Shown here piece by piece: positions 4,041 to 29,390 of a DNA stretch of 64,000 bases (positions are counted from its first letter, which is position 1; every line of letters starts with the position of its first letter). Source of the stretch: Ptiloglossa arizonensis (lineage: Eukaryota > Arthropoda > Insecta > Hymenoptera > Colletidae). The notes beneath the pieces are model-generated. The model made no database searches, was not told where the DNA came from, and saw only the letters and a list, made by a program, of their open reading frames with translations. Where the stretch lies: positions 310,001-374,000 of the forward strand of contig NW_027478902.1 of the NCBI RefSeq assembly GCF_051014685.1. The letters are read 5' to 3'. A program made the translations under genes and the position numbers.

Positions 4041-7000
4041 GTGATAAGTTATACGTTATACGTTATACGTTATACGTTATACGTTATACGTTATACGTTA
4101 TACGTTATACGTTATACGTTATACGTTATACGTTATACGTTATACGTTATACGTTATAGGTTATACGTTATACGTTATACGTTATACGTTATACGTTATA
4201 CGTTATACGTTATACGTTATACGTTATACGTTATACGTTATACGTTATACGTTATACGTTATACGATATACGTTATACGTTTTACGTTATACGTTATACG
4301 TTATACGTTATACGATATACGTTATACGTTATACGTTATACGTTATACGTTATACGTTATACGTTATACGTTATACGTTATACGTTATACGTTACACGTA
4401 ATATGTAATACGTTATACGTTTTACGTTATTCGATATACGTTATACGTTATACGTTATACGTTATACGTTATACGTTATACGTTATACGATATACGTTAT
4501 ACGTTATACGATATACGTTATACGTTATACGTTATACGTTATACGTTATACGTCATACGTTATACGTTATACGTTATGGGTTATACGTTATACGTTATAC
4601 GTTATACGTTATACGTTATACGTTATACGTTATACGTTACAAGTTATACGTTATACGTTATACGTTATACGATATGCGTCATAGGTTACACGATACACGT
4701 TATACGTTACACGTAATATGTAATACGTTATACGTTTTACGTTATTCGATATACGTTATACGTTATATGTTATACGTTATACGTTACACGCTATACGTTT
4801 TACGTTATACGTTATACGTTATACGTTATACGTTATACGTTATACGTTATACGTTATACGTTATACGTTATACGTTATACGATATACGTTATACGTTATA
4901 CGTTATACGTTATACGTTATACGTTATACGTTATGGGTTATACGTTATACGTTATACGTTATACGTTATACGTTATACGTTATACGTTATACATTATACG
5001 TTATACGTTATACGTTATACGTTATACGTTATACGTTATACGTTATACGTTACAAGTTATACGTTATACGTTATACGTTATACGTTATACGTTATACGTT
5101 ATACGTTATACGTTATACGTTATACGTTATACGTTATACGTTATACGTTATACGTTATACGTTATACGGTGTACGTTATACGTTAAAACGTTATACGTAA
5201 TACGTTATACGTTATACGGAATACGTTATACGTTATACGTTATACGTCATACGTGATAAGTTATACGTTATACGTTATACGTTATACGTTATACGATATA
5301 CGTTATACGTTATACGTTATACGTTATACGTTATACGTTATACGTTATACGTTATACGTTATACGTTATACGTTATACGTTATACGTTATACGTTATAGG
5401 TTATACGTTATACGTTATACGTTATACGTTATACGTTATACGTTATACGTTATACGTTATACGTTATACGTTATACGTTATACGTTATACGTTATACGTT
5501 ATACGATATACGTTATACGTTTTACGTTATACGTTATACGTTATACGTTATACGTTATACGTTATACGTTATACGTTATACGTTATACGTTATGGGTTAT
5601 ACGTTATACGTTATACGTAATACGTTATACGTTATACGTTATACGTTATACGTTACAAGTTATACGTTATACGTTATACGATATACGTCATAGGTTACAC
5701 GATACACGTTATACGTTACACGTAATATGTAATACGTTATACGTTTTACGTTATTCGATATACGTTATACGTTATACGTTATACGTTATACGTTATACGT
5801 TATACGTTATACGATATACGTTATACGTTATACGATATACGTTATACGTTATACGTTATACGTTATACGTTATACGTCATAGCTTACACGATACACGTTA
5901 AACGTCATACGTTATACGTTACACGTTATACGTCACACGTTATACGTTATACGTTACACGTTATACGTTGTACGTTATACGTTATACGTTAAACGTTCTA
6001 CGTTATACGTTATACGTTATACGTTATACGTTATACGTTATACGTTATACGTTATACGATATACGTTATACGTTATACGTTATACGTTATACGTTATACG
6101 TTATACGTTATATTGTTATACGTTATACGTTATACGTTATGGGTTATACGTTATACGTTATACGTTATACGTTATACGTTATACGTTATACGTTATACGT
6201 TACAAGTTATACGTTATACGTTATACGTTATACGATATACGTCATAGGTTACACGATACACGTTATACGTTACACGTAATATGTAATACGTTATACGTTT
6301 TACGTTATTCGATATACGTTATACGTTATATGTTATACGTTATACGTTACACGCTATACGTTTTACGTTATACGTTATACGTTATACGTTATACGTTATA
6401 CGTTATACGTTATACGTTATACGTTATACGTTATACGTTATACGATATACGTTATACGTTATACGTTATACGTTATACGTTATACGTTATACGTTATACG
6501 TTATACGTTATACGTTATACGTTATACGTTATGGGTTATACGTTATACGTTATACGTTATACGTTATACGTTATACGTTATACGTTATACGTAATACGTT
6601 ATACGTTATACGTTATACGATATACGTTATACGTTATACGTTATACGTTATACGTTATACGTTATACGTTATACGTTATACGTTATACGTTATACGTTAT
6701 ACGTTATACGTTATACGTTATGGGTTATACGTTATACGTTATACGTTATACGTTATACGTTATACGTTATACGTTATACGTTATACGTTATACGTTATAC
6801 GTTATACGTTATACGTTATACGTTATACGTTATACGTTATACGTTACAAGTTATACGTTATACGTTATACGTTATACGATATACGTCATAGGTTACACGA
6901 TACACGTTATACGTTACACGTAATATGTAATACGTTATACGTTTTACGTTATTCGATATACGTTATACGTTATACGTTATACGTTATACGTTACACGCTA

Positions 7001-19884: not shown

Positions 19885-19898
19885 ATACGTTATACGTT
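19885..19898. repeat. Target-site duplication, left copy
   Basis: The 14 bases ATACGTTATACGTT directly precede the insertion and recur directly after its poly(A) at 27769-27782. A direct repeat inside a 7-bp satellite proves nothing alone. The support is the unit count: uninterrupted copies of this module have four TTATACG units between TTACACG and TTAAACG, whereas the two flanks here together hold six, an excess of 14 bp. Confidence 0.65.
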
Positions 19899-19950
19899 GG
19901 TGCGCCGGCAGCCGACGGAGACGGACGTGTGCGGCGTGTCGGGACGGCGG

Positions 19951-20255
19951 GACGTTGTGTTGACGTTGTGTTGTGTTGTTCGCATTGAAAAGGTAGGACC
20001 CGTACACGCGAATCGCACGCACGTGCGTACGAGGGTTTTGAGGGTTTTGATTCGTTGAACAATCGAGAGATCATCGGTGAACGGTGCTGTGACACGTTAA
20101 CTACGGGTGCACGCGGGTGTGTCTATAAATAGCTTCGTGTGATTCGGAGTGTCGCGTTCGATCCACGTGCTCTTTCGGAGCAGGTCACGGAGAAAAGATT
20201 GTCAACAAGAAACACGGACCGCGGGGCACGAGCGAACGGCGGAAAACAAGGACAG
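19951..20255 (+). repeat. Direct duplication of about 0.31 kb, copy 1
   Basis: Matches the next copy at 313-315 bp spacing, from the GTTGTGTTGTTCGCATTG stretch to GGAAAACAAGGACAG. Differences are scattered substitutions and small indels, for example TATAAATAG here against TATAATAG in copy 2, and AAAAGGTAGGA here against AAAAGGTAAGA. The divergence shows this duplication is older than some of the near-identical satellite duplications. Confidence 0.9.
20124..20132 (+). promoter_or_regulatory. TATA-like motif in duplicate copy 1
   Basis: TATAAATAG follows a GC-rich stretch and precedes GATTCGGAGTG about 20 bp downstream. The motif alone is weak evidence. If the whole block arrived as an RNA copy, this motif was inside the transcript and was not its promoter. 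Confidence 0.3.
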
Positions 20256-20264
20256 GAGAAGGAC

Positions 20265-20568
20265 GGTGTGGTGCGTATCGGGACGTTGTGTTGTTCGCAT
20301 TGAAAAGGTAAGACCCGTACACGCGAATCGCACGCACGTGCGTACGAGGGTTCGATTCGATTCGTTGAACAATCGAGAGTTCATCGGTGAACGGTGCTGC
20401 GACACGTTAACTACGGGTGCACGCGGGTGTGTCTATAATAGCTTCGTGTGATTCGGAGTGTCGCGTTCGATCCACGTGCTCTTTCGGAGCAGGTCACGGA
20501 GAAAAGATTGTCAACAAGAAACACGGACCGCGGGGCACGGGCGAACGAACGGCGGAAAACAAGGACAG
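20265..20568 (+). repeat. Direct duplication of about 0.31 kb, copy 2
   Basis: Second copy of the 19951-20255 segment. It contains TATAATAG at 20434-20441 and, near 20306, AAAAG followed by GTAAGA, a good match to an insect 5' splice site; the equivalent in copy 1 is GTAGGA. Noncoding first exons could lie here, but no acceptor or transcript evidence is available. Confidence 0.85.
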
Positions 20569-20825
20569 AGAACAGTCACCTGCTATCGGATTCGGAACGA
20601 TCGTTTCGCGAACGAATCGCGTCGATGTTGACAACAGCATCGTATACGCGCGTGTTTCCCTTCCGTCCTCGTGACATAAACGCATCGTAAACACGCGCGA
20701 CGCGCGACGCGCTCGCGTATTCATTACGTATTCATACGAAATTCCGACGAGTCCTTGTCTCGTATACTCGTCCCGGTCGTGTAAACAAAAAGCGGGACGG
20801 AACACGCTGGGCGGAAGTGCCCCGC

Positions 20826-20865
20826 GGATTATCGGATTATCGGATTATCGGATTATCGGATTATC
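20826..20865 (+). repeat. Five tandem copies of GGATTATC
   Basis: A perfect 8-bp microsatellite of five units in the host-like segment. It shares the TTAT core with the large satellite but differs in length and phase. No function can be inferred. Confidence 0.95.
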
Positions 20866-21278
20866 GCGATACGCGGTACTTTCGACAAATTGGCGCGTTC
20901 CATTCGATCGCGGTAGCGGGAATCGATATATCGCGAGATTCTCGCCGACGTCACCGAGTAAGAAGGAACGAATACCCGAAGTGTGATCCTTGCTCGGAAC
21001 GAGAATACGAAATCCTGTTAACTCGATCCGTTAATGTAACGGGCACGAAGACTGGCCGGCGACTACTCGGTGACGCGTCCGCGCGTATCATATGCGCGTA
21101 TCAACGGAACGAAATCGCGCGTAAATAAAACTTGTTGTTCCGGGACGGGCGCAACAGCGGAAGAAGAGGAATCGAACACGCGGAGAAGCTTGCCGTGGTT
21201 CGTAACGGCGGACGAAGGGAAGGGGACGAGAGGCGAACGATGCTGTCCGGTCGTCGCGGTTAATTCGCACGTGTCGCG

Positions 21279-21572
21279 ATGTCGGGCGGCACGGCGGGCG
21301 TCCGTGGCACCGGCGCCGAGTGCAGGAAGTTCGCGCCGAACATATTCAACAAGAGCAAGTGCAGCAGCTGCTTCAAGCAGAAGGAGGAGCACAGCGCGGA
21401 GGCTCTGGAATGTAACAGGGCCACGAGGAAGATTTCAAAATGCGGATACCTGTTCGTCGCCCCCGGCTGGGACTTCTCGAATCCCCTGAATCGGACCAAG
21501 AGGTGGCAGAGAAGATGGTTCGATCTGTACGACGACGGGGAGCTAACGTACTCGGTGGACGAACACACAAGG
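21279..21572 (+). pseudogene. osp: outspread/MPRIP-type first coding exon, PH-domain N-terminal fragment
   Basis: An open frame from ATG encodes 96 residues that I recognise as the start of insect outspread, the relative of vertebrate MPRIP, an actin- and Rho-signalling-linked cytoplasmic scaffold with a PH domain. Diagnostic parts are [18 protein letters not shown] near residues 15-32 and the beginning of a PH domain (GYLFVAP at 56-62, TKRWQRRWF at 73-81, [13 protein letters not shown] at 84-96). Recognisable similarity stops at H96 (21566), and ACAAGGGTTAGA follows, with a possible donor AGG|GTTAGA. The rest of the protein is absent. Asp at residue 82 sits where family members normally have a hydrophobic residue in this PH strand, hinting at relaxed constraint. 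It may be a transduced fragment (preferred) or the true first exon of osp. The frame itself could read on to a stop at 21665. Confidence 0.6.
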
Positions 21573-21674
21573 GTTAGAAGGAAGATAATGTGTTCTGGGA
21601 TTGGAGGTGTTTGTAGAAGAGAAGAAGAGAAGAAGGGAATCGTAGGTGGATTTTGTTCGATGTGAGTCTAAGTT
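21573..21674 (+). other. Intron-like sequence between the osp exon and the R1 element
   Basis: About 100 bp, purine-rich on the plus strand (repeated AGAAG), with lower GC than the R1 body. It begins with GTTAGA directly after the exon and so is probably the start of the following intron. The exact join to the retrotransposon is uncertain by about 20 bp. Composition changes to GC-rich around 21675-21690. Confidence 0.45.
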
Positions 21675-22065
21675 TCGAGGGGATCCCTCAGGGGCTGTAG
21701 CTTGTTGCTACAGTACGGGACTGGCAAACCCGAGGTGCCCGATGCCAAACCACACCGTAAGACTCCTGTTGGTCGTCGCAACGACCCACTCCCAATTCCT
21801 CTTTTGGCTTTGACAGTGGTACGTGACGGCAGGAGGGACGGGGGCCTTGGCTTTACCGCCCGGGCCGCGAGGATGGTAACTCTATAAATTGCCCTCCAAT
21901 CCTAAGCTGCGGTGCGCGGTGATGGGATGCGTGGTTGGGGGGGAGGCCCCAATCCCAAGCGGCCAACTCCGGGGTACCTGCCGACCCCCCGGAGTATTTA
22001 GGCCTGCCCGGGTATGGCGGCTCTGCCCGGGTCGACTTACTTTCCGACCTACGCGTGGGAACAGA
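21675..22065 (+). other. R1 element 5' UTR
   Basis: About 390 bp from the composition change to the preferred ORF1 start. It includes a short perfect stem-loop near its beginning and a TATAAAT-like string at 21883. The ORF1 frame is open back to 21889 but begins there only with TTG. An in-frame ATG at 21922 is an alternative start. Confidence 0.6.
21695..21713 (+). other. Stem-loop near the R1 5' end
   Basis: CTGTAGC and GCTACAG form a perfect 7-bp stem with loop TTGTT. It lies within about 20 bp of the inferred element start. Some non-LTR elements carry 5' structured RNAs, but the stem alone does not identify one. Confidence 0.5.
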
Positions 22066-24012
22066 ATGAATAATATTCAAAAGAAAAAAATAAAAGGGGG
22101 AGGGGTGACGGAGCGTGTGGCGCGAAGGGTGGCGACGGAGGGGGCACTCGTGCCCAACCCGGCGCCGTTCGAGGAGGGGGACGAGACGGCGTCGGTCTCG
22201 TCCCTGACGTCCGCGACCAGCGCCGCGGGCGTAAAGAGGCGCAGGACGGTGGAGGGGCGGAGGACGGAGGAAGCTCCGTCCACGTCCGCTGCTCCACCGT
22301 TGCTCACGGTGAGCGACGGGGAGGAGGACCTCAGGGACGAGGATACGGCCCATGTATCGGCCCGTATTGCCTCGTCCCTGAGGTCTATTGAGAAGGTGGC
22401 CACCACCTCGCGAGGGCTGACTACAGCCTCCGCGAGGTCGGTTGGCCAGGCCGCGACGGAGGCGCGGAGGGCTCTCCAGGAGCTGGGACGCCGTGTCCCA
22501 GCTGCCTTGGAGTACACGAACGCCCAACTGAGGCAGCGTGTGGAGGCGCTGCAAGACGAGCTTGAGTGCTCGCGGAGGGAGACGGACGCCCTTAGGAGGC
22601 GCCCTCATCCGGGGCCGACGGGCGACTGCACGTGTGGGAGGGGGAAGGCGGGAGCTCCCCCCACACCAGCGACGTCCATGAGGAGCATCGAGCTCCTCAT
22701 GGACGCCAAGATGGCGGCCATGATGGCCGTCATCCGCGGGGAAATCCGGGCGGCGCTTCGCCCCAAGGGCGGAGCGCCGGCGGGACCGAGGACCGGGCCC
22801 GGGAAACAACCGGGGGGCGGGGGACCGCAGGGGGGGACCATCGCGGTTCCGGGCCCTGCGGCAAAGACGAAGGGCAAGGGTGCCGCGGTGGGGGCGACGG
22901 CGGGGGCACAAATGCCTCCGCCGCCGCCCCCAACCGGTCCCTTGTGGACGGAGGTCCTGGGCCGAAAAGAAAAAAGGACGGCGAGGAGGGCGGCCCGGGT
23001 GCCGCCGCCTCCCCCGCCGGTTGCCCCGAAGAGGGACGGAAAGGCGGGGAAGGCGAAGCCCCGTCTGGGACGCCCCCCTTCAACGGCAGCAGTCATGCTG
23101 ACCGTCCCGGAGGGGGGGGGGGGCGTCTCCTACGGGGAGGTGATGGCGGCGGCCAAGGAGAAGATATCCTTGGCCGCACTCGCCATCGAATCGGTCCGCC
23201 CGAGATGGGCGGTGACGGGGGCGCTCATGCTGCGCGTGAGCGGCCCCGACAACGCAGCCAGGGCGGACCGACTGGCCGAAAAGCTGGGCGAGGCCTTGGC
23301 GCCCCGGGGTGTCAGGGTCGCCCGGCCCACAAAAAGCGCGGAGCTGCGCGTTTGTGGGCTGGACGACTCGGTTACCCGGGAGGAGGTGACCGGGGCGCTG
23401 GCCCAAGCCGGTGGCTGCTCTGAGGGGGACATCCGGACCGGGGAGGTCCGGCGGTCCTCCTCCGGCCTGGGAGCGGTGTGGGCACGGTGCCCTCTTCCGG
23501 CTGCCCGGAAGTTAGAAGCAGTCGGGAGGATCGTGGTGGGGTGGGTGTCGGCGAGGATCGAGGTCCTCGCCCAACGCCCACTCCAGTGCTACCGCTGCCT
23601 GGAGACGGGCCATGTCAGGCAGCGGTGCACCTCCGCGGTGGACCGCAGCGGTGCTTGTTACCGCTGCGGTGCCGAAGGCCACCGCGCGAGCCACTGCGCG
23701 GCGGCCCCCAAGTGCCCGTTGTGTGCGGACATGGGGAGACCCGCCGCGCACCGAATGGGGGGGAAGCAGTGTACCCCCCCATCCCGACGAGGGCAGAGGA
23801 GGGGGGCGCCGGGGCCGCTCCCGGCGCCGGTGAGAGTAGCCCCAGCTGCGAGCGCCGCGGCGCCCGCGGACCTGGCCGCGACCGCCGCGACGGCCGCAAA
23901 GAAGGGGTCGGAGGCGGCGGCGGCGTTGATGTCCGCGATGGAGGTGGACATTGGCCCCGCCGCCGTCCTCACGGAGGTGCCACCAGGAGGCGGTGAGGAG
24001 GCCATCAATTAA
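22066..24012 (+). CDS. R1-clade ORF1, gag-like RNA-binding protein
   Basis: 648 residues from the ATG at 22066, chosen because it has A at -3 and directly precedes the charged N-terminus; ATG 21922 would add 48 residues. It probably coats element RNA in a ribonucleoprotein and helps carry it to the nuclear target. Order: acidic/Ser-rich N-terminus, a Glu/Arg/Leu-rich likely coiled coil near 147-180, a long Pro/Gly/Lys/Arg-rich linker near 180-340, a region near 342-500 that may form RRM-like folds as in relatives, then three zinc knuckles. The first two are C-x2-C-x4-H-x4-C, starting at residues 508 and 531. The third is C-x2-C-x8-H-x6-C, residues 550-569. The tail is Ala-rich. The frame is intact and very GC-rich, like ORF2. 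It ends in TAA overlapping the ORF2 start. Confidence 0.9.
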   Translation: MNNIQKKKIKGGGVTERVARRVATEGALVPNPAPFEEGDETASVSSLTSATSAAGVKRRRTVEGRRTEEAPSTSAAPPLLTVSDGEEDLRDEDTAHVSARIASSLRSIEKVATTSRGLTTASARSVGQAATEARRALQELGRRVPAALEYTNAQLRQRVEALQDELECSRRETDALRRRPHPGPTGDCTCGRGKAGAPPTPATSMRSIELLMDAKMAAMMAVIRGEIRAALRPKGGAPAGPRTGPGKQPGGGGPQGGTIAVPGPAAKTKGKGAAVGATAGAQMPPPPPPTGPLWTEVLGRKEKRTARRAARVPPPPPPVAPKRDGKAGKAKPRLGRPPSTAAVMLTVPEGGGGVSYGEVMAAAKEKISLAALAIESVRPRWAVTGALMLRVSGPDNAARADRLAEKLGEALAPRGVRVARPTKSAELRVCGLDDSVTREEVTGALAQAGGCSEGDIRTGEVRRSSSGLGAVWARCPLPAARKLEAVGRIVVGWVSARIEVLAQRPLQCYRCLETGHVRQRCTSAVDRSGACYRCGAEGHRASHCAAAPKCPLCADMGRPAAHRMGGKQCTPPSRRGQRRGAPGPLPAPVRVAPAASAAAPADLAATAATAAKKGSEAAAALMSAMEVDIGPAAVLTEVPPGGGEEAIN

Positions 24013-24014
24013 TG
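24010..24014 (+). promoter_or_regulatory. UAAUG stop-start overlap coupling ORF1 and ORF2
   Basis: The TAA of ORF1 (24010-24012) and the ATG of ORF2 (24012-24014) share one A. The same arrangement in the R1-clade element SART1 supports ORF2 translation by termination-reinitiation. The overlap is seen in the sequence; the mechanism here is inferred by analogy. Confidence 0.85.
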
Positions 24015-27000
24015 GCTCCCCGCCTCCTCCTGCAGGCCAACCTCAACCACTGCCGCGCAGCGCAGGACCTAATGTGTCAGACGCTGGCGGACTGGGGGGG
24101 TGGTCTGGCAGTCGCTGCCGAGCCGTACCGCGTCCCCGACCATCCGCATTGGATGGGGGATGCGGACGGCTTGGTGGCGGCTGTGTGGCAGGGCGGTGAC
24201 GGGTCCCCTCCGTTCTCCTTACTGGAGAGCGGGGCGGGATTCGTCGCCGTCCAGTGGGGGGGAGTCGTCGTGGTGGGGTGCTACGTTTCGCCCAACTGCG
24301 GCCTTGCTGCCTTCGAGCAGTACTTGGCCGGGGTGGGGGCGTGCCTCACAAGGATTGCGCCCCGGCCGGTGCTGGTCCTGGGGGACTTCAATGCCTGGTC
24401 TGTGGCATGGGGGTCCCCCAGGACCAATCGAAGGGGCGAGGCTCTGGGCGACTGGGCGGCGGGCTTCGACCTCCGGTTGATTAACCGGGGGTCAGAGCTG
24501 ACGTGCGTGCGGCGCGGGGGAGGGTCCATAGTGGATTTGACGTTTGGATCCCCCGGCGCCGCGCGTATGGTGTCCGGGTGGGACGTGGTGGTGGGGGAGG
24601 AGACATTATCGGACCACCGGTATATCCGCGTGGTCCTGACCGCCCCCGAGGCCGCCGCGGCCCCACACCGACACCTCCGCCCGGGAGCGGGTAGCGCCCC
24701 ACCACGCAGATGGGCGCTTCGGCGCCTTGACAAGGACGTCCTGGTGGCAGCCGCTCTAGCCGAAACCTGGCCTCGACGGGAGACCAGGCTGCCCGACCTG
24801 GAGGAGGCCGTGGCTCGGCTCGGGAGCGCCGTCGCGCGCATTTGCGACGCGGCGATGCCCCGGGCCGGGCCGCGGTCTCCTCGTCGGGCGGTGTACTGGT
24901 GGTCGGGCGAAATCGGGGAATTGCGGACAGCATGCGTCCGGGCCCGACGCCAGTACACCCGCGCGCGTCGTCGGGCCGGACGGAACGGCGACGACGGCGC
25001 GCGGGCGGGGGCGGCGGAACTGTACGAGTCCTATCGGGCGGAAAAGAGGGCTCTGCAGGTCGCCATCAAACGGGCCAAGGCCCAGAGCTGGAAGGAGCTC
25101 CTCGAGACCCTCGAGCGGGATCCATGGGGGCGCCCATACCGGATAGTTCTAAATAAACTCCGGCCATGGGCTCCCCCGATCACCGAGAGTCTCGACCCCC
25201 AGCTCTTGAGGGACGTGGTCGACACGCTCTTCCCGATCGTGGGGGAGAGCGGGCCACGTCCCTCTGCGGACCCGACCACCTGGTCCGCGGAGCTGGGGGT
25301 CTCGGCTGGGGAGCTAGCCGCGGCCGTCCGAAGACTCGGGGCGAAGGATACTGCCCCGGGTCCTTCGGGAGTGCCCGGCCGAGTCTTGGTCTTGGCCGCG
25401 GACGTCCTGGGTGACGGCCTCCGGGAGCTATTCGACCGCTGCCTGGAGGCCGGGCGATTCCCCTCCGCATGGAAGGTGGCCCGAATGGTCCTCCTCCGGA
25501 AAGAGGGTAGGCCCGCGGACTCTCCGTCCGCGTACCGGCCGATTTGCCTGCTCGACGATGTGGGCAAGCTCCTAGAAAGAGTCGTGGCGGCCCGCATCGT
25601 CGGGCACCTGTCGCGGGGTGGGCCCGGGCTGGCGGAGTGCCAGTTCGGGTTCCGGGAGGGCCGGTCGACGATCGACGCGATTCGACGCGTCCGGTCCCTC
25701 TCGGCCTCGGCGGTCTCCCGGGGTGGGGTGGCATTGGCGGTGTCCTTGGACATCGCCAATGCGTTTAACACCCTACCCTGGGAGGCGATTAGGCGGGGGC
25801 TTGAGGAACATCGAGTCCCCGCCTACCTTAGGGCAGTCGTCGAGGACTACCTCCGCGACAGGTGGATCGAGTATCCGGGCCGGTGCGGGACGGAGAGGAG
25901 AGCGGTGTACTCCGGGGTTCCGCAGGGGTCGGTGTTAGGACCCCTGCTGTGGAACCTCGGGTACGACACCGTCCTGCGGGCCGAAGACCTCCCCGACGGC
26001 GTCAGTCTGACGTGTTACGCGGACGACACCTTGTTGTTGGCCGTCGGGGGCGACTGGAGGGGGGCTGTTCGGGCCGCCGAGGACGGTGCCCGGCGCGTCG
26101 TCTCCCGGATCAGGGGGATCGGTTTGGAGGTGGCTCTCCACAAAACCGAGGTACTCGGGATGTATAGACCCCGGGGAGAGCCGCCTCCCCCCCTGATCCG
26201 GGTGGGTGAGACAGACGTCAAGGTGAGGTCTCAGATGAAATATCTGGGACTTCACCTCGACAGCCACTGGCGCTTCGAGGGCCATTTCCGGGCCCTGGCC
26301 CCGCGGTTGGAGAGGATAGTTGGCGCTTTGGGCCGTATCCTCCCCAACCTGCGGGGCCCGAGTGACCGGGTTCGCCGCCTCTACGCGGGAATGGTCCACT
26401 CGGTGGCCCTATACGGGGCCCCCGTTTGGGCGGGCGACCTGGCCGCCTCCCGGCGCAGCAAGGTATTGCTGCGCCGGGTTCAAAGGCGGCTTGCACTGCG
26501 GATCGCCCGGGGGTACCGGACCGTTTCGTATGAGGCGGCGAGCGTCCTGTCAGGGCTACCCCCGGCGGACTTGATCGCGGGCGCGCATGCGGCTTCCTAC
26601 GAGGGCCGCATGCGCGCCCGCGAGGATGGGGTGGTCCTGGCGGGATGCGAGATGGAGGCCCTCAGGCGCCAGGCCCGGGAGTCCATGCTGCAGCTTTGGC
26701 AGCAGCGGCTGGCCGAGCCGTTGTTCGGCCAGAGGACTGTCCGGGCTATCCGGCCGGTCCTGTTTGAGTGGCTGGGTAGGCGCTTCGGCTCACTCACCTA
26801 CCGGTTGGTGCAGGTGCTGTCCGGGCACGGATGCTTCGGACAGTACCTGTGCCGGATCGGTGTGGAAGAGGCGGCGCGCTGCTGGCACTGTCCAGCGGAC
26901 GAGGACACGGCGCAACACACCCTCGAGGTGTGTCCGGCCTGGGGGGTGGAGCGCCGTGTCCTCACGGCCGTGATTGGGGCGGATCTATCGCTGCCGGGCG

Positions 27001-27179
27001 TGGTACGGGCCATGCTCGGCAGCGAGACGAGGTGGCGGGCCGTGGCCTCCTTCTGCGAGGAGGTAATCTCGCAGAAGGAGGCCGCGAGCCGCATTCGCGA
27101 GGGGGGGAGGCCGCGAGCGAGGCCTCGTCCGAGGCCGGGGGAGGGTGGGCCTCCGGAAGGGCCGTGGAGGCCACCCTGA
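24012..27179 (+). CDS. R1-clade ORF2, APE-type endonuclease and reverse transcriptase
   Basis: 1055 residues, intact. It nicks the chromosomal target and copies element RNA from the exposed 3' end (target-primed reverse transcription). Endonuclease, about residues 1-220: N10 in QANLNH, E37 in AEPYR, D125 in GDFNAWS, D175 in SIVDLTF, and D201-H202 in SDHRYI, the expected metal-binding and catalytic set. Reverse transcriptase, about 475-745: YRPICLLDDVGKLLERV, QFGFREGRSTIDAI, SLDIANAF (D580), GVPQGSVLGPLLWNL, catalytic YADD at 669-672, and MKYLGLHLD. The C-terminal zinc knuckle is C-x2-C-x8-H-x4-C at residues 957-974, followed by an Arg/Pro/Gly-rich tail. Length and layout are normal for the clade. 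The last codons also encode a strong RNA hairpin. No RNase H domain was seen. Confidence 0.95.
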   Translation: MAPRLLLQANLNHCRAAQDLMCQTLADWGGGLAVAAEPYRVPDHPHWMGDADGLVAAVWQGGDGSPPFSLLESGAGFVAVQWGGVVVVGCYVSPNCGLAAFEQYLAGVGACLTRIAPRPVLVLGDFNAWSVAWGSPRTNRRGEALGDWAAGFDLRLINRGSELTCVRRGGGSIVDLTFGSPGAARMVSGWDVVVGEETLSDHRYIRVVLTAPEAAAAPHRHLRPGAGSAPPRRWALRRLDKDVLVAAALAETWPRRETRLPDLEEAVARLGSAVARICDAAMPRAGPRSPRRAVYWWSGEIGELRTACVRARRQYTRARRRAGRNGDDGARAGAAELYESYRAEKRALQVAIKRAKAQSWKELLETLERDPWGRPYRIVLNKLRPWAPPITESLDPQLLRDVVDTLFPIVGESGPRPSADPTTWSAELGVSAGELAAAVRRLGAKDTAPGPSGVPGRVLVLAADVLGDGLRELFDRCLEAGRFPSAWKVARMVLLRKEGRPADSPSAYRPICLLDDVGKLLERVVAARIVGHLSRGGPGLAECQFGFREGRSTIDAIRRVRSLSASAVSRGGVALAVSLDIANAFNTLPWEAIRRGLEEHRVPAYLRAVVEDYLRDRWIEYPGRCGTERRAVYSGVPQGSVLGPLLWNLGYDTVLRAEDLPDGVSLTCYADDTLLLAVGGDWRGAVRAAEDGARRVVSRIRGIGLEVALHKTEVLGMYRPRGEPPPPLIRVGETDVKVRSQMKYLGLHLDSHWRFEGHFRALAPRLERIVGALGRILPNLRGPSDRVRRLYAGMVHSVALYGAPVWAGDLAASRRSKVLLRRVQRRLALRIARGYRTVSYEAASVLSGLPPADLIAGAHAASYEGRMRAREDGVVLAGCEMEALRRQARESMLQLWQQRLAEPLFGQRTVRAIRPVLFEWLGRRFGSLTYRLVQVLSGHGCFGQYLCRIGVEEAARCWHCPADEDTAQHTLEVCPAWGVERRVLTAVIGADLSLPGVVRAMLGSETRWRAVASFCEEVISQKEAASRIREGGRPRARPRPRPGEGGPPEGPWRPP
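27041..27086 (+). other. Strong hairpin inside the end of ORF2
   Basis: A perfect 16-bp stem (27044-27059 with 27068-27083) closes an 8-nt loop, and three outer pairs including one G-U extend it to 27041-27086. It lies in codons near residues 1010-1025, so the same bases serve coding and pairing. It is the first of a chain of hairpins continuing to the poly(A). Confidence 0.85.
27143..27176 (+). other. Hairpin directly before the ORF2 stop codon
   Basis: GGGTGG-CCTCC type stem of 11 pairs with one bulged G (27149) and an 11-nt loop. The TGA stop at 27177-27179 lies immediately after the 3' arm. It may be part of the 3' RNA structure. Confidence 0.65.
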
Positions 27180-27260
27180 GAGCGGCGGGCGGGGGTGCGT
27201 AGCCCTTGAGGCTCGTGCCACCGCCCGTCGTCTGAGGGGGGGGAGGAATGGGGGGCGGCG

Positions 27261-27303
27261 ACGCTCTCGAGGGCGGAGAGGCCAGAGCCGCCCTCGGGAG
27301 CGT
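27261..27303 (+). other. 3' UTR hairpin, 16 pairs
   Basis: Arms 27261-27276 and 27288-27303 pair throughout, with one G-U (T27267 with G27297) and an 11-nt loop. The G-U pair keeps an RNA stem where a DNA palindrome would be broken. Confidence 0.85.
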
Positions 27304-27318
27304 ACGAGCCGGGGTGCG

Positions 27319-27362
27319 GCCGCGCCGACGGCACGGTCCCGGGGCCGTGCCTCCGGCGCGGC
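27319..27362 (+). other. 3' UTR hairpin, two stacked stems
   Basis: GCCGCGCCG (27319-27327) pairs with CGGCGCGGC (27354-27362). After a 2x2 internal loop, GGCACGG (27330-27336) pairs with CCGTGCC (27345-27351) around an 8-nt loop. Confidence 0.85.
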
Positions 27363-27374
27363 TATGAGGGCCGT

Positions 27375-27407
27375 GGGCGGTCGCGAGTGTGGGACTCGCG
27401 GCCGCCC
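27375..27407 (+). other. 3' UTR hairpin, 14 pairs
   Basis: GGGCGGTCGCGAGT (27375-27388) pairs with ACTCGCGGCCGCCC (27394-27407). The only non-Watson-Crick pair is a G-U (T27381 with G27401). The loop is 5 nt, GTGGG. Confidence 0.88.
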
Positions 27408-27428
27408 TCGGGCGGCCCCCGGGAGTGG

Positions 27429-27461
27429 GACGTCGGAGCAGTGTGGCCCTGCTCCGACGTC
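27429..27461 (+). other. 3' UTR hairpin, 13 perfect pairs
   Basis: GACGTCGGAGCAG (27429-27441) and CTGCTCCGACGTC (27449-27461) are exact reverse complements around a 7-nt loop. Confidence 0.9.
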
Positions 27462-27486
27462 GGGTGCCAGAGCACCGAGGAGAAAA

Positions 27487-27523
27487 CAGGGAAGGGAGGG
27501 TGAAGTACCCCCTCCCTTCCCTG
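27487..27523 (+). other. 3' UTR hairpin, 14 perfect pairs
   Basis: CAGGGAAGGGAGGG (27487-27500) and CCCTCCCTTCCCTG (27510-27523) pair exactly around a 9-nt loop. Unlike its neighbours, the stem is purely purine on one side apart from the first base. Confidence 0.9.
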
Positions 27524-27551
27524 GAACGGGAGGACACGGGCGCGAGAGCCC

Positions 27552-27607
27552 TGCACGGGGGAGCACCTGATGTTATGATGTCTTCGGTCCCAGGTGCTCC
27601 CCCTGCA
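27552..27607 (+). other. 3' UTR hairpin, 17 pairs with one bulge
   Basis: GGGGGAGCACCTG (27557-27569) pairs exactly with CAGGTGCTCCCCC (27591-27603). Beyond a bulged C at 27556, TGCA at 27552-27555 pairs with TGCA at 27604-27607. The 21-nt loop contains a C(TTCG)G tetraloop-like string. Confidence 0.88.
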
Positions 27608-27649
27608 TAGTGCGAGGATGGCCACCGTGGTGGGTTTTAGTGGGTAGGT

Positions 27650-27682
27650 CCCGCGCCCGATGGGTTTCCTTCCGGGCGCGGG
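27650..27682 (+). other. 3' UTR hairpin, 10 pairs
   Basis: CCCGCGCCCG (27650-27659) pairs with CGGGCGCGGG (27673-27682) around a 13-nt loop. Confidence 0.8.
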
Positions 27683-27748
27683 GAATCCCACACTCCCCCC
27701 GCCCCTCCCCAGGCGGCGGGGGGGAATTTCGAAGATTTCCCCCACGTT

Positions 27749-27768
27749 AAAAAAAAAAAAAAAAAAAA
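27749..27768 (+). other. Poly(A) tail of the inserted element
   Basis: An A-run of 21 bases (27749-27769). Twenty are assigned to the tail and the last to the satellite, because the uninterrupted satellite would have an A there. It marks the 3' junction of target-primed reverse transcription. Confidence 0.9.
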
Positions 27769-27782
27769 ATACGTTATACGTT
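27769..27782. repeat. Target-site duplication, right copy
   Basis: ATACGTTATACGTT, identical to 19885-19898. The first A cannot be told apart from the poly(A), so the length is 14 only if this A belongs to the target; the module unit count favours that. Confidence 0.65.
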
Positions 27783-29390
27783 ATACGTTATACGTTAAAC
27801 GTTCTGCGTTATACGTTATACGTTATACGTTATACGTTAAACGTTCTGCGTTATACGTTATACGTTATACGTTATACGTTATACGTTATACGTTATACGT
27901 TATACGTTATACGTTATACGTTATACGTTATACGTTATACGTTAGACGTTTTACGTTATACGTTATACGTTATACGTTATACGTTATACGTTATACGTTA
28001 TACGTTATACGTTATACGTTATACGTTATACGTTATACGTTATACGTTATACGTTATACGTTATACGTTATACGTTATACGTTATACGTTATACGTTATA
28101 CGTTATACGTTATACGGTGTACGTTATACGTTAAAACGTTATACGTAATACGTTATACGTTATACGGAATACGTTATACGTTATACGTTATACGTCATAC
28201 GTGATAAGTTATACTTTATACGTTATACGTTATACGATATACGTTATACGTTATACGTTATACGTTATACGTTATACGTTATACGTTATACGTTATACGT
28301 TATGGGTTATACGTTATACGTTATACGTTATACGTTATACGTTATACGTTATACGTTATACGTTATACGTTATACGTTATACGTTATACGTTATACGTTA
28401 TACGTTATACGTTATACGATATACGTTATACGTTATACGTTATACGTTATACGTTATACGTCATAGCTTACACAATACACGTTAAACGTCATACGTTATA
28501 CGTTACACGTTATACGTCACACGTTATACGTTATACGTTACACGTTATACGTTATACGTTATACGTTATACGTTAAACGTTCTGCGTTATACGTTATACG
28601 TTATACGTTATACGTTATACGTTATACGTTATACGTTATACGTTATACGTTATACGCTTTACGTTATACGATATACGTTATACGTTATACGTTATACGTT
28701 ATACGTTATACGTTATACGTTATACGTTATACGTTATACGTTATACGTTATACGTTATGGGTTATACGTTATACGTTATACGTTATACGTTATACGTTAT
28801 ACGTTATACGTTACAAGTTATACGTTATACGTTATACGATATACGTCATAGGATACACGATACACGTTATACGTTACACGTAATATGTAATACGTTATAC
28901 GTTTTACGTTATTCGATATACGTTATACGTTATACGTTATACGTTATACGTTACACGCTATACGTTTTACGTTATACGTTATACGTTATACGTTATACGT
29001 TATACGTTATACGTTATACGTTATACGTTATACGTTATACGTTATACGATATACGTTATACGTTATACGTTATACGTTATACGTTATACGTTATACGTTA
29101 TACGTTATACGTTATACGTTATACGTTATACGTTATACGTTATACGTTATACGTTATACGTTATACGTTATACGTTATACGTTATACGTTATACGTTATA
29201 CGTTATACGTTATACGTTATACGTTATACGTTACAAGTTATACGTTATACGTTATACGATATACGTCATAGGTTACACGATACACGTTATACGTTACACG
29301 TAATATGTAATACGTTATACGTTTTACGTTATTCGATATACGTTATACGTTATACGTTATACGTTATACGTTACACGCTATACGTTATAC
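27783..29390. repeat. Right-array segment with left-array modules
   Basis: Contains the GTCATACGTGATAAG marker (28194), GGTGTACG, a TTATGGG unit, TTACAAG, and two copies of the ATAGG-TTACACG-ATACACG module (about 28850 and 29269), all typical of 1-19898. The array therefore looks continuous across the insertion, with the change of module type only at about 29.4 kb. Confidence 0.75.
28456..28580. repeat. Uninterrupted paralogue of the insertion site
   Basis: Shares with the left flank (19796-19898) the order TCATAGC, TTACACAATACACG, TTAAACG and later TTACACG, including the private CACAATA variant. It shares with the right flank (27795-27810) the TTAAACG-TTCTGCG variant. Four TTATACG units separate TTACACG from TTAAACG here, as in the copies near 1200, 5960 and 9640. 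It therefore serves as an empty site. Confidence 0.75.

Follow-up and report, generated by a model that had tools for sequence, protein, structure and literature searches.

An R1-clade retrotransposon family carrying spliced 5' exons of the host gene outspread in the bee Ptiloglossa arizonensis

How does the 5' end of a host gene come to be fused, in the sense direction, to a retrotransposon in the middle of a satellite? The question is raised by a stretch of 64,000 nucleotides (nt) from the bee Ptiloglossa arizonensis (RefSeq assembly GCF_051014685.1, contig NW_027478902.1, positions 310,001 to 374,000), referred to below as the window. According to Tandem Repeats Finder, the window is one TTATACG array, broken by an insert at 19899-27769. 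The insert contains, all on the + strand (as are all other window features described here), a 5' terminal piece that we call segment X, sequence of the gene osp (outspread), a segment of 113 nt, an R1-clade element, and poly(A). The initial annotation described this order, strand, and poly(A) as we find them, and explained them as a 5' transduction, in which an R1 copy within osp intron 1 was cotranscribed from upstream and the chimeric RNA was reverse transcribed. On the evidence below, it is very probable that an R1-clade long interspersed nuclear element (LINE) gained the spliced 5' end of osp via a chimeric RNA and then amplified as a family, and that the copy in the window is a later member of it.

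Osp exons 1, 2, and 3 are present in order on the + strand of contig C2, ending at 29383864, 29481394, and 29572841, respectively. The end of exon 3 together with its donor has one match in the genome, on C2; exon 2 has a single match, 91.4 kb upstream of exon 3, and exon 1 a single match a further 97.4 kb upstream, on the same strand. The introns of 97.4 kb (between exons 1 and 2) and 91.4 kb (between exons 2 and 3) are missing from the insert, and the insert's exon joints coincide exactly with the native splice sites (AG/GT borders). The coding part of exon 1 (MSGGT...ECNR, window 21279-21419) stops at the native exon end (AACAGG/GTGAG, C2:29383864). It is followed by exon 2 (...NRTK, 21420-21500; native C2:29481314-29481394, acceptor TTCCAG, donor GTGAGC) and exon 3 (RWQRRWF...SVDEH, 21501-21566; native C2:29572776-29572841, acceptor TTTCCAG, donor GTGAGT), in which the window's identity to C2 spans AG acceptor to GT donor. 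The osp sequence in the insert ends exactly at the exon-3 donor, where native GTGAGTTT starts. Because exons 1-3 are joined precisely at native splice sites and osp stops at the exon-3 donor, the chimera went through spliced RNA: the osp part is a copy of spliced RNA, not of genomic DNA.

The native coding pieces (141 + 81 + 66 bp) add up to the window's 288 bp, with nine differences, eight of them synonymous and one nonsynonymous (V to D, in exon 3). Upstream, the 5' untranslated region (5' UTR) of exon 1 (20326-21278) is collinear with the native exon from C2:29382834 on. The exon 1 alignment (20326 to 21420) has 1012 identities in 1096 columns, 65 of which are gap columns; that is, exon 1 (5' UTR plus coding part) differs from the native exon by 19 substitutions over 1031 aligned bases, in addition to the gaps. 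Within the element's 5' UTR, CGGATTAT occurs in five copies (20825-20866) versus one in native osp exon 1, and this microsatellite either expanded in the element or contracted in the osp gene.

These results bear on most of what had been proposed for the locus. The supposed first coding exon is indeed osp coding sequence, but it is three native exons joined, and an unspliced read-through of intron 1 is ruled out by their joining at native splice sites and by the absence of the introns. With three spliced exons and a joint exactly at the exon-3 donor, transcription did not simply run from exon 1 into an R1 in intron 1. A host 5' end was carried via RNA, as a 5' transduction implies, although the transcript was spliced and two giant introns had been removed. 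The roughly 100 bp at 21567-21679 that had been described as intron-like sequence differ from the native sequence after exon 3, GTGAGTTTC. The annotation had named, as the case that would refute it, the absence of any other osp 5' end together with downstream osp exons beyond the right-hand satellite; this case is excluded by the native exons 1-3 with their splice sites on C2. The predicted source was looked for, but no R1 preceded by those 113 bp turned up in osp. Nor is the insert a processed pseudogene, which would hold a complete mRNA with its own poly(A), given that its osp sequence ends at the exon-3 donor and has no poly(A) at that joint.

Could the window simply be osp in its native place, one intron of which contains R1 and satellite? 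The osp frame runs through 21279-21566 and on to a stop at 21665, leaving 128 amino acids open, and 95 of the 96 osp residues are the same in the native gene, as this explanation would predict. However, the native exons, complete with donors and acceptors, are on C2, no GT directly follows exon 3 in the window, and there are many other copies. The chance that this is an ordinary gene is thus close to nil, and we regard the native-locus explanation as refuted by exons 1-3 on C2.

The number of copies was assessed in two ways. A DNA search with the osp coding part yielded 97 candidates. Scores were computed for the top 40 (one being the window itself), all of which have 99%-100% identity over 296 of 296 bases. 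A genome scan used 26 letters, comprising AG plus the start of the 113-nt segment, allowing up to two mismatches, with the reversed letters as control. It found 93 places (55 with one mismatch and 38 with two), among them all 40 scored copies, versus zero for the control. The 55/38 split tracks a single G/A site and may mark two subfamilies. The chimera is therefore multicopy, and the window holds one member rather than, as the initial annotation had it, a capture event of its own.

To characterize the family, we used the 20 next best matches to the osp coding part after the window, a sample thus chosen by that part. The four internal junctions are present in all 20 (one mismatch allowed at each). 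Eleven share a common 5' end, where full-length copies start with (A)GTCGTGCGCC, and in ten of them, those whose target duplication is readable, 0-4 extra nucleotides come before GTCGTGCGCC. Eight are 5' truncated, at seven points of the insert (22, 106, 301, 378, 713, 1004 [twice], and 1037). Target duplications of 11-14 bp are seen in 15 of the 20, with any A's shared with poly(A) excluded from the length; of the others, L013 and L026 have assembly gaps, L015 is at a contig end, and in L018 and L029 no target duplication was seen. Poly(A) lengths range from 20 to 37 nt. The copies thus bear the marks of target-primed reverse transcription: an RNA in which spliced osp exons 1-3 preceded an R1 was reverse transcribed and inserted, and the chimera multiplied in this manner. 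Pairwise identity is 97.9%-100% (L015 excluded, leaving 19 copies plus the window). A tree of the copies is poorly resolved, most of its branches being short, and sets the window and L026 apart as a well-supported pair. ORF2, the second open reading frame (ORF), has a stop-free stretch of at least 1060 codons in 19 of 21 copies including the window (the exceptions are L013, interrupted by a gap, and L025, with 1021 codons).

The flanks differ among most copies and belong to several unrelated repeats, including GTCCCAGCGGCGTG, so the family also inserts outside TTATACG, and a TTATACG-specific element is ruled out. The initial annotation had host sequence being dispersed into a satellite; this holds for the window copy, whereas other copies are in other repeats. 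The GTCCCAGCGGCGTG repeat adjoins 10 of the 20 copies (L010, L013, L018, and L022-L028), most at one identical point, which suggests a preferred target within it. Also, one contig, C23, holds 10 of the 40 scored copies.

An alternative is that satellite or segmental duplication, rather than retrotransposition, multiplied the chimera. Many copies do lie inside tandem repeats, L022 and L023 seem to have been duplicated with their flanks, and L015 has the window's right flank at 100%. But flanks, target duplications, poly(A) length, and 5' truncation all vary among the copies, and for the majority of the 20 copies, duplication as the main multiplier is refuted, although a minority may be duplicates. 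As a general explanation we consider it very improbable.

For the window itself, a target duplication inside a 7-bp satellite is not directly readable, so the higher-order pattern of the satellite was used instead. A 29-nt anchor from the left flank has 20 other matches in the window, four of which (1183, 5931, 9623, and 28515) continue with four 7-bp units and then GTTAAACGTTCT; at 5931, one of the four units is a variant, and only at 28515 does the insert's exact right context (GTTCTGC) occur. The filled site has six units, the split one included. Six units versus four at an empty site imply a duplication of 13-14 bp (ATACGTTATACGTT if an A is shared with poly(A)), provided that the empty site had four units. 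Its left copy would be at 19885-19898 and its right copy at 27769-27782. The single target duplication proposed earlier therefore has support from unit counts, if not from direct reading. The non-element 5' sequence lies inside one such duplication directly in the 15 other copies, and by this reasoning in the window. Its derivation from the RNA of an identifiable locus (osp on C2) holds for exons 1-3, but not for 19899-20010 or 21567-21679. In the literature, we found no paper in which TTATACG appears together with "satellite."

What joined osp to R1? Between them lies the 113-nt segment (21567-21679), attached to the end of exon 3, and we read it as exonized flank of the source R1. In our preferred scenario, transcription would start on the osp side and pass exons 1-3, and the exon-3 donor would be spliced in cis to an acceptor ~113 nt upstream of an R1 copy in the following osp intron. 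The R1 machinery would insert the chimeric RNA via target-primed reverse transcription, and the product would found a LINE family with the osp exons as its fixed 5' region; the family would then gain a tandem 5' UTR duplication and amplify. On C2, the intron after exon 3 was covered for 9.2 kb, and no next osp exon was recognized there. Within the 60.1 kb of C2 covered with exon 3, the rest of the insert has no match (blastn, E 0.01), and the 113-nt segment was not found in the 60 kb tested. In the genome scan, the two letters ahead of the segment are AC (the end of exon 3) in 93 of 93 places and AG in none.

The same facts could point to trans-splicing, in which osp pre-mRNA was joined to an R1-containing transcript of another locus and R1 was never in osp. 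No 113-nt segment turned up in the portions of the osp locus that were covered, nor anywhere behind AG (up to two mismatches), and the 9.2 kb after exon 3 offer no recognizable next exon. Law and Burns (2026, PMC13174262), in their study of human L1, consider splicing in cis or in trans and point out that long introns follow the last exon captured. However, cis-splicing requires no special process, the source copy may be lost or unassembled, and only 9.2 kb of the intron was read, so we consider trans-splicing a serious contender that is nonetheless unlikely. A third route is template jumping, which R2-type polymerases are known to do: the reverse transcriptase would have left the 5' end of the R1 RNA for spliced osp RNA during integration. 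This could account for segment X and the 113 nt. Still, we think it quite improbable, as osp ends exactly at a splice donor, which is not a point that a jump would choose, 113 nt of non-osp sequence separate osp from R1, and no osp poly(A) is seen at the joint.

The 5'-most part of the insert has a more complicated history. Segment X (19899-20010, 112 nt) is the element's 5' terminus and has no match within 2 kb upstream of native exon 1. It is followed by a first copy of the start of the native exon-1 5' UTR (20011-20260, 93.2% identity to C2:29382834-29383072) and by a second, partial copy of X-like sequence (20261-20325), within a ~310-bp unit that is tandemly duplicated in the insert. Native exon 1 holds one copy of this unit; the duplication is therefore the element's own, barring the loss of a copy from the native allele. 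Upstream of C2:29382834, the native sequence diverges from the insert, and there is no AG at the break. Segment X thus came from elsewhere: it may stem from an osp allele since lost, from a different RNA, or from a gain at a later time. The osp-like upstream DNA of the initial annotation is accordingly mostly exon-1 5' UTR, but its first 112 nt and the duplication are not native.

The best reading is that one founding capture was inherited by a young LINE family, and several points weigh against it. Segment X is not native upstream sequence, and with no native AG at the break, a second event or an allele since lost must be invoked for the 5'-most part. The source R1, with the 113-nt segment behind AG, was not found in the assembly (up to two mismatches), so both acceptor and source are inferred. 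No tree demonstrates a single capture, and 53 of the 93 places rest on the 26 letters alone. A recognizable target duplication is absent in 2 of the 17 copies with both ends readable (L018 and L029). L015, which starts at a contig end, is 100% identical across 7370 bp and has the same right flank as the window, and thus may be the window locus assembled twice. L022 and L023 (C23), ~18 kb apart, are both 5' truncated, with the same truncation point and flank and 100% identity; they are probably one insertion that was later duplicated. As to age, the native gene differs from the element at 19 of 1031 positions in exon 1 and 9 of 288 in the coding part versus at most ~2% among the copies, which, with uncalibrated rates, suggests that the capture could be about as old as the oldest split among the copies read, or somewhat older.

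The retrotransposon itself (21680-27748, the 5' limit being approximate) is of the non-long terminal repeat (non-LTR) type and ends in a poly(A) of 21 nt (27749-27769). ORF1 (22066-24012) has a CCHC zinc knuckle, and ORF2 (24012-27179, 1055 amino acids) has an APE-type endonuclease and a reverse transcriptase (PF14529, PF03372, PF00078). Among named proteins, those most similar to ORF2 are of the R1DM type and come from Anthophora bees (57% identity over 98%), and its best unnamed match has 72% identity; these protein relatives assign the element to the R1 clade. It does not have the 28S site of R1 proper: the window copy is in TTATACG satellite and the flanks of other copies are mutually different (no comparison of the latter with 28S sequence was made). 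The ORF1 stop overlaps the ORF2 start (TAATG, 24008-24016); SART-type elements have such an overlap, with coupled translation. Although the element is R1-like, its 3' UTR matches the Rfam family R2_retro_el (RF00524) at 27626-27746 (46.8 bits vs. a gathering score of 38), reflecting either convergence or a 3' structure common to both. One R1-type protein with 50% identity is listed as Piscirickettsia salmonis in a public set, and this entry is probably contamination by insect or other animal DNA.

To our knowledge, exon or promoter capture by LINEs is known mostly from mammalian L1, as single insertions. Our literature searches found no R1-clade or insect 5' transduction (most subscription journals were outside their scope). 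The closest precedent comes from human LINE-1, for which 5' transductions of host mRNA are described. One reference genome has 17 such insertions, which involve host first exons, mostly on the sense strand; 6 of 17 end exactly at splice donors, and for the two in which the matter is addressed, no source element was found in the gene (PMC13174262). As in those, host first exons lie here in sense, 5' of a near full-length LINE, with target duplication and poly(A); unlike in those, the element is of the R1 clade, the host is a bee, and the chimera has grown into a family (93 places, 40 confirmed). For arthropod R1, 14-bp target duplications are reported for the ancestral type, as are insertions outside 28S genes too and extra untemplated nucleotides at some full-length 5' junctions (PMC2718515). 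The family described here is similar in these respects and in its R1-like proteins, but its copies are in several unrelated repeats and have poly(A) and osp exons. Another comparison is with tandem-repeat insertion and tandem 5' structure in other LINEs. TRAS and SART are telomeric R1-clade elements in tandem repeats; here, there is no single target repeat, and no TTAGG array was seen in the 70-nt flanks examined. Mouse L1 has tandem 5' monomers, a tandem duplication in the 5' UTR, whereas the unit duplicated here is largely host gene sequence and its promoter role is a candidate one.

Does the captured leader do anything for the element? It is conceivable, though we hold it only tentatively, that the osp-derived 5' UTR and exons, partly tandem, act as the element's promoter or translation leader and so drive the family's success, and that the osp peptide has been retained because it is functional. 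With the A of the 5' AGTC counted as +1, an RGWYVT motif, which we take to be downstream-promoter-like, lies at +28, as would suit a promoter inside the 5' region; the 1380-bp leader contains six RGWYVT motifs and no strict TCAKTY. The 96 osp codons are open in 21 of 21 copies read (picked by their match to the osp coding part), and against the native gene, synonymous divergence (dS) is 0.146 and nonsynonymous divergence (dN) 0.0044, not polarized. We do not claim purifying selection on the peptide: the nine differences are not assignable to a lineage, and the exon-1 5' UTR has only ~17 substitutions. Diversity among copies in the osp coding part is 0.0007 versus 0.0022-0.0136 elsewhere in the element, which we dropped as evidence because the copies are the top matches to that very part.

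Overall, this is an insect R1-clade element with three correctly spliced host exons, a hybrid that is a young multicopy lineage. An insect retrotransposon is thus able to capture and spread parts of a host gene via RNA, and the family makes it possible to ask, in a natural setting, whether a 5' end captured from a host can turn into a LINE's own leader, a possible route by which non-LTR elements renew their 5' regions. It also leaves host-gene sequence scattered through repeat arrays, which could feed small-RNA silencing of the parent gene.
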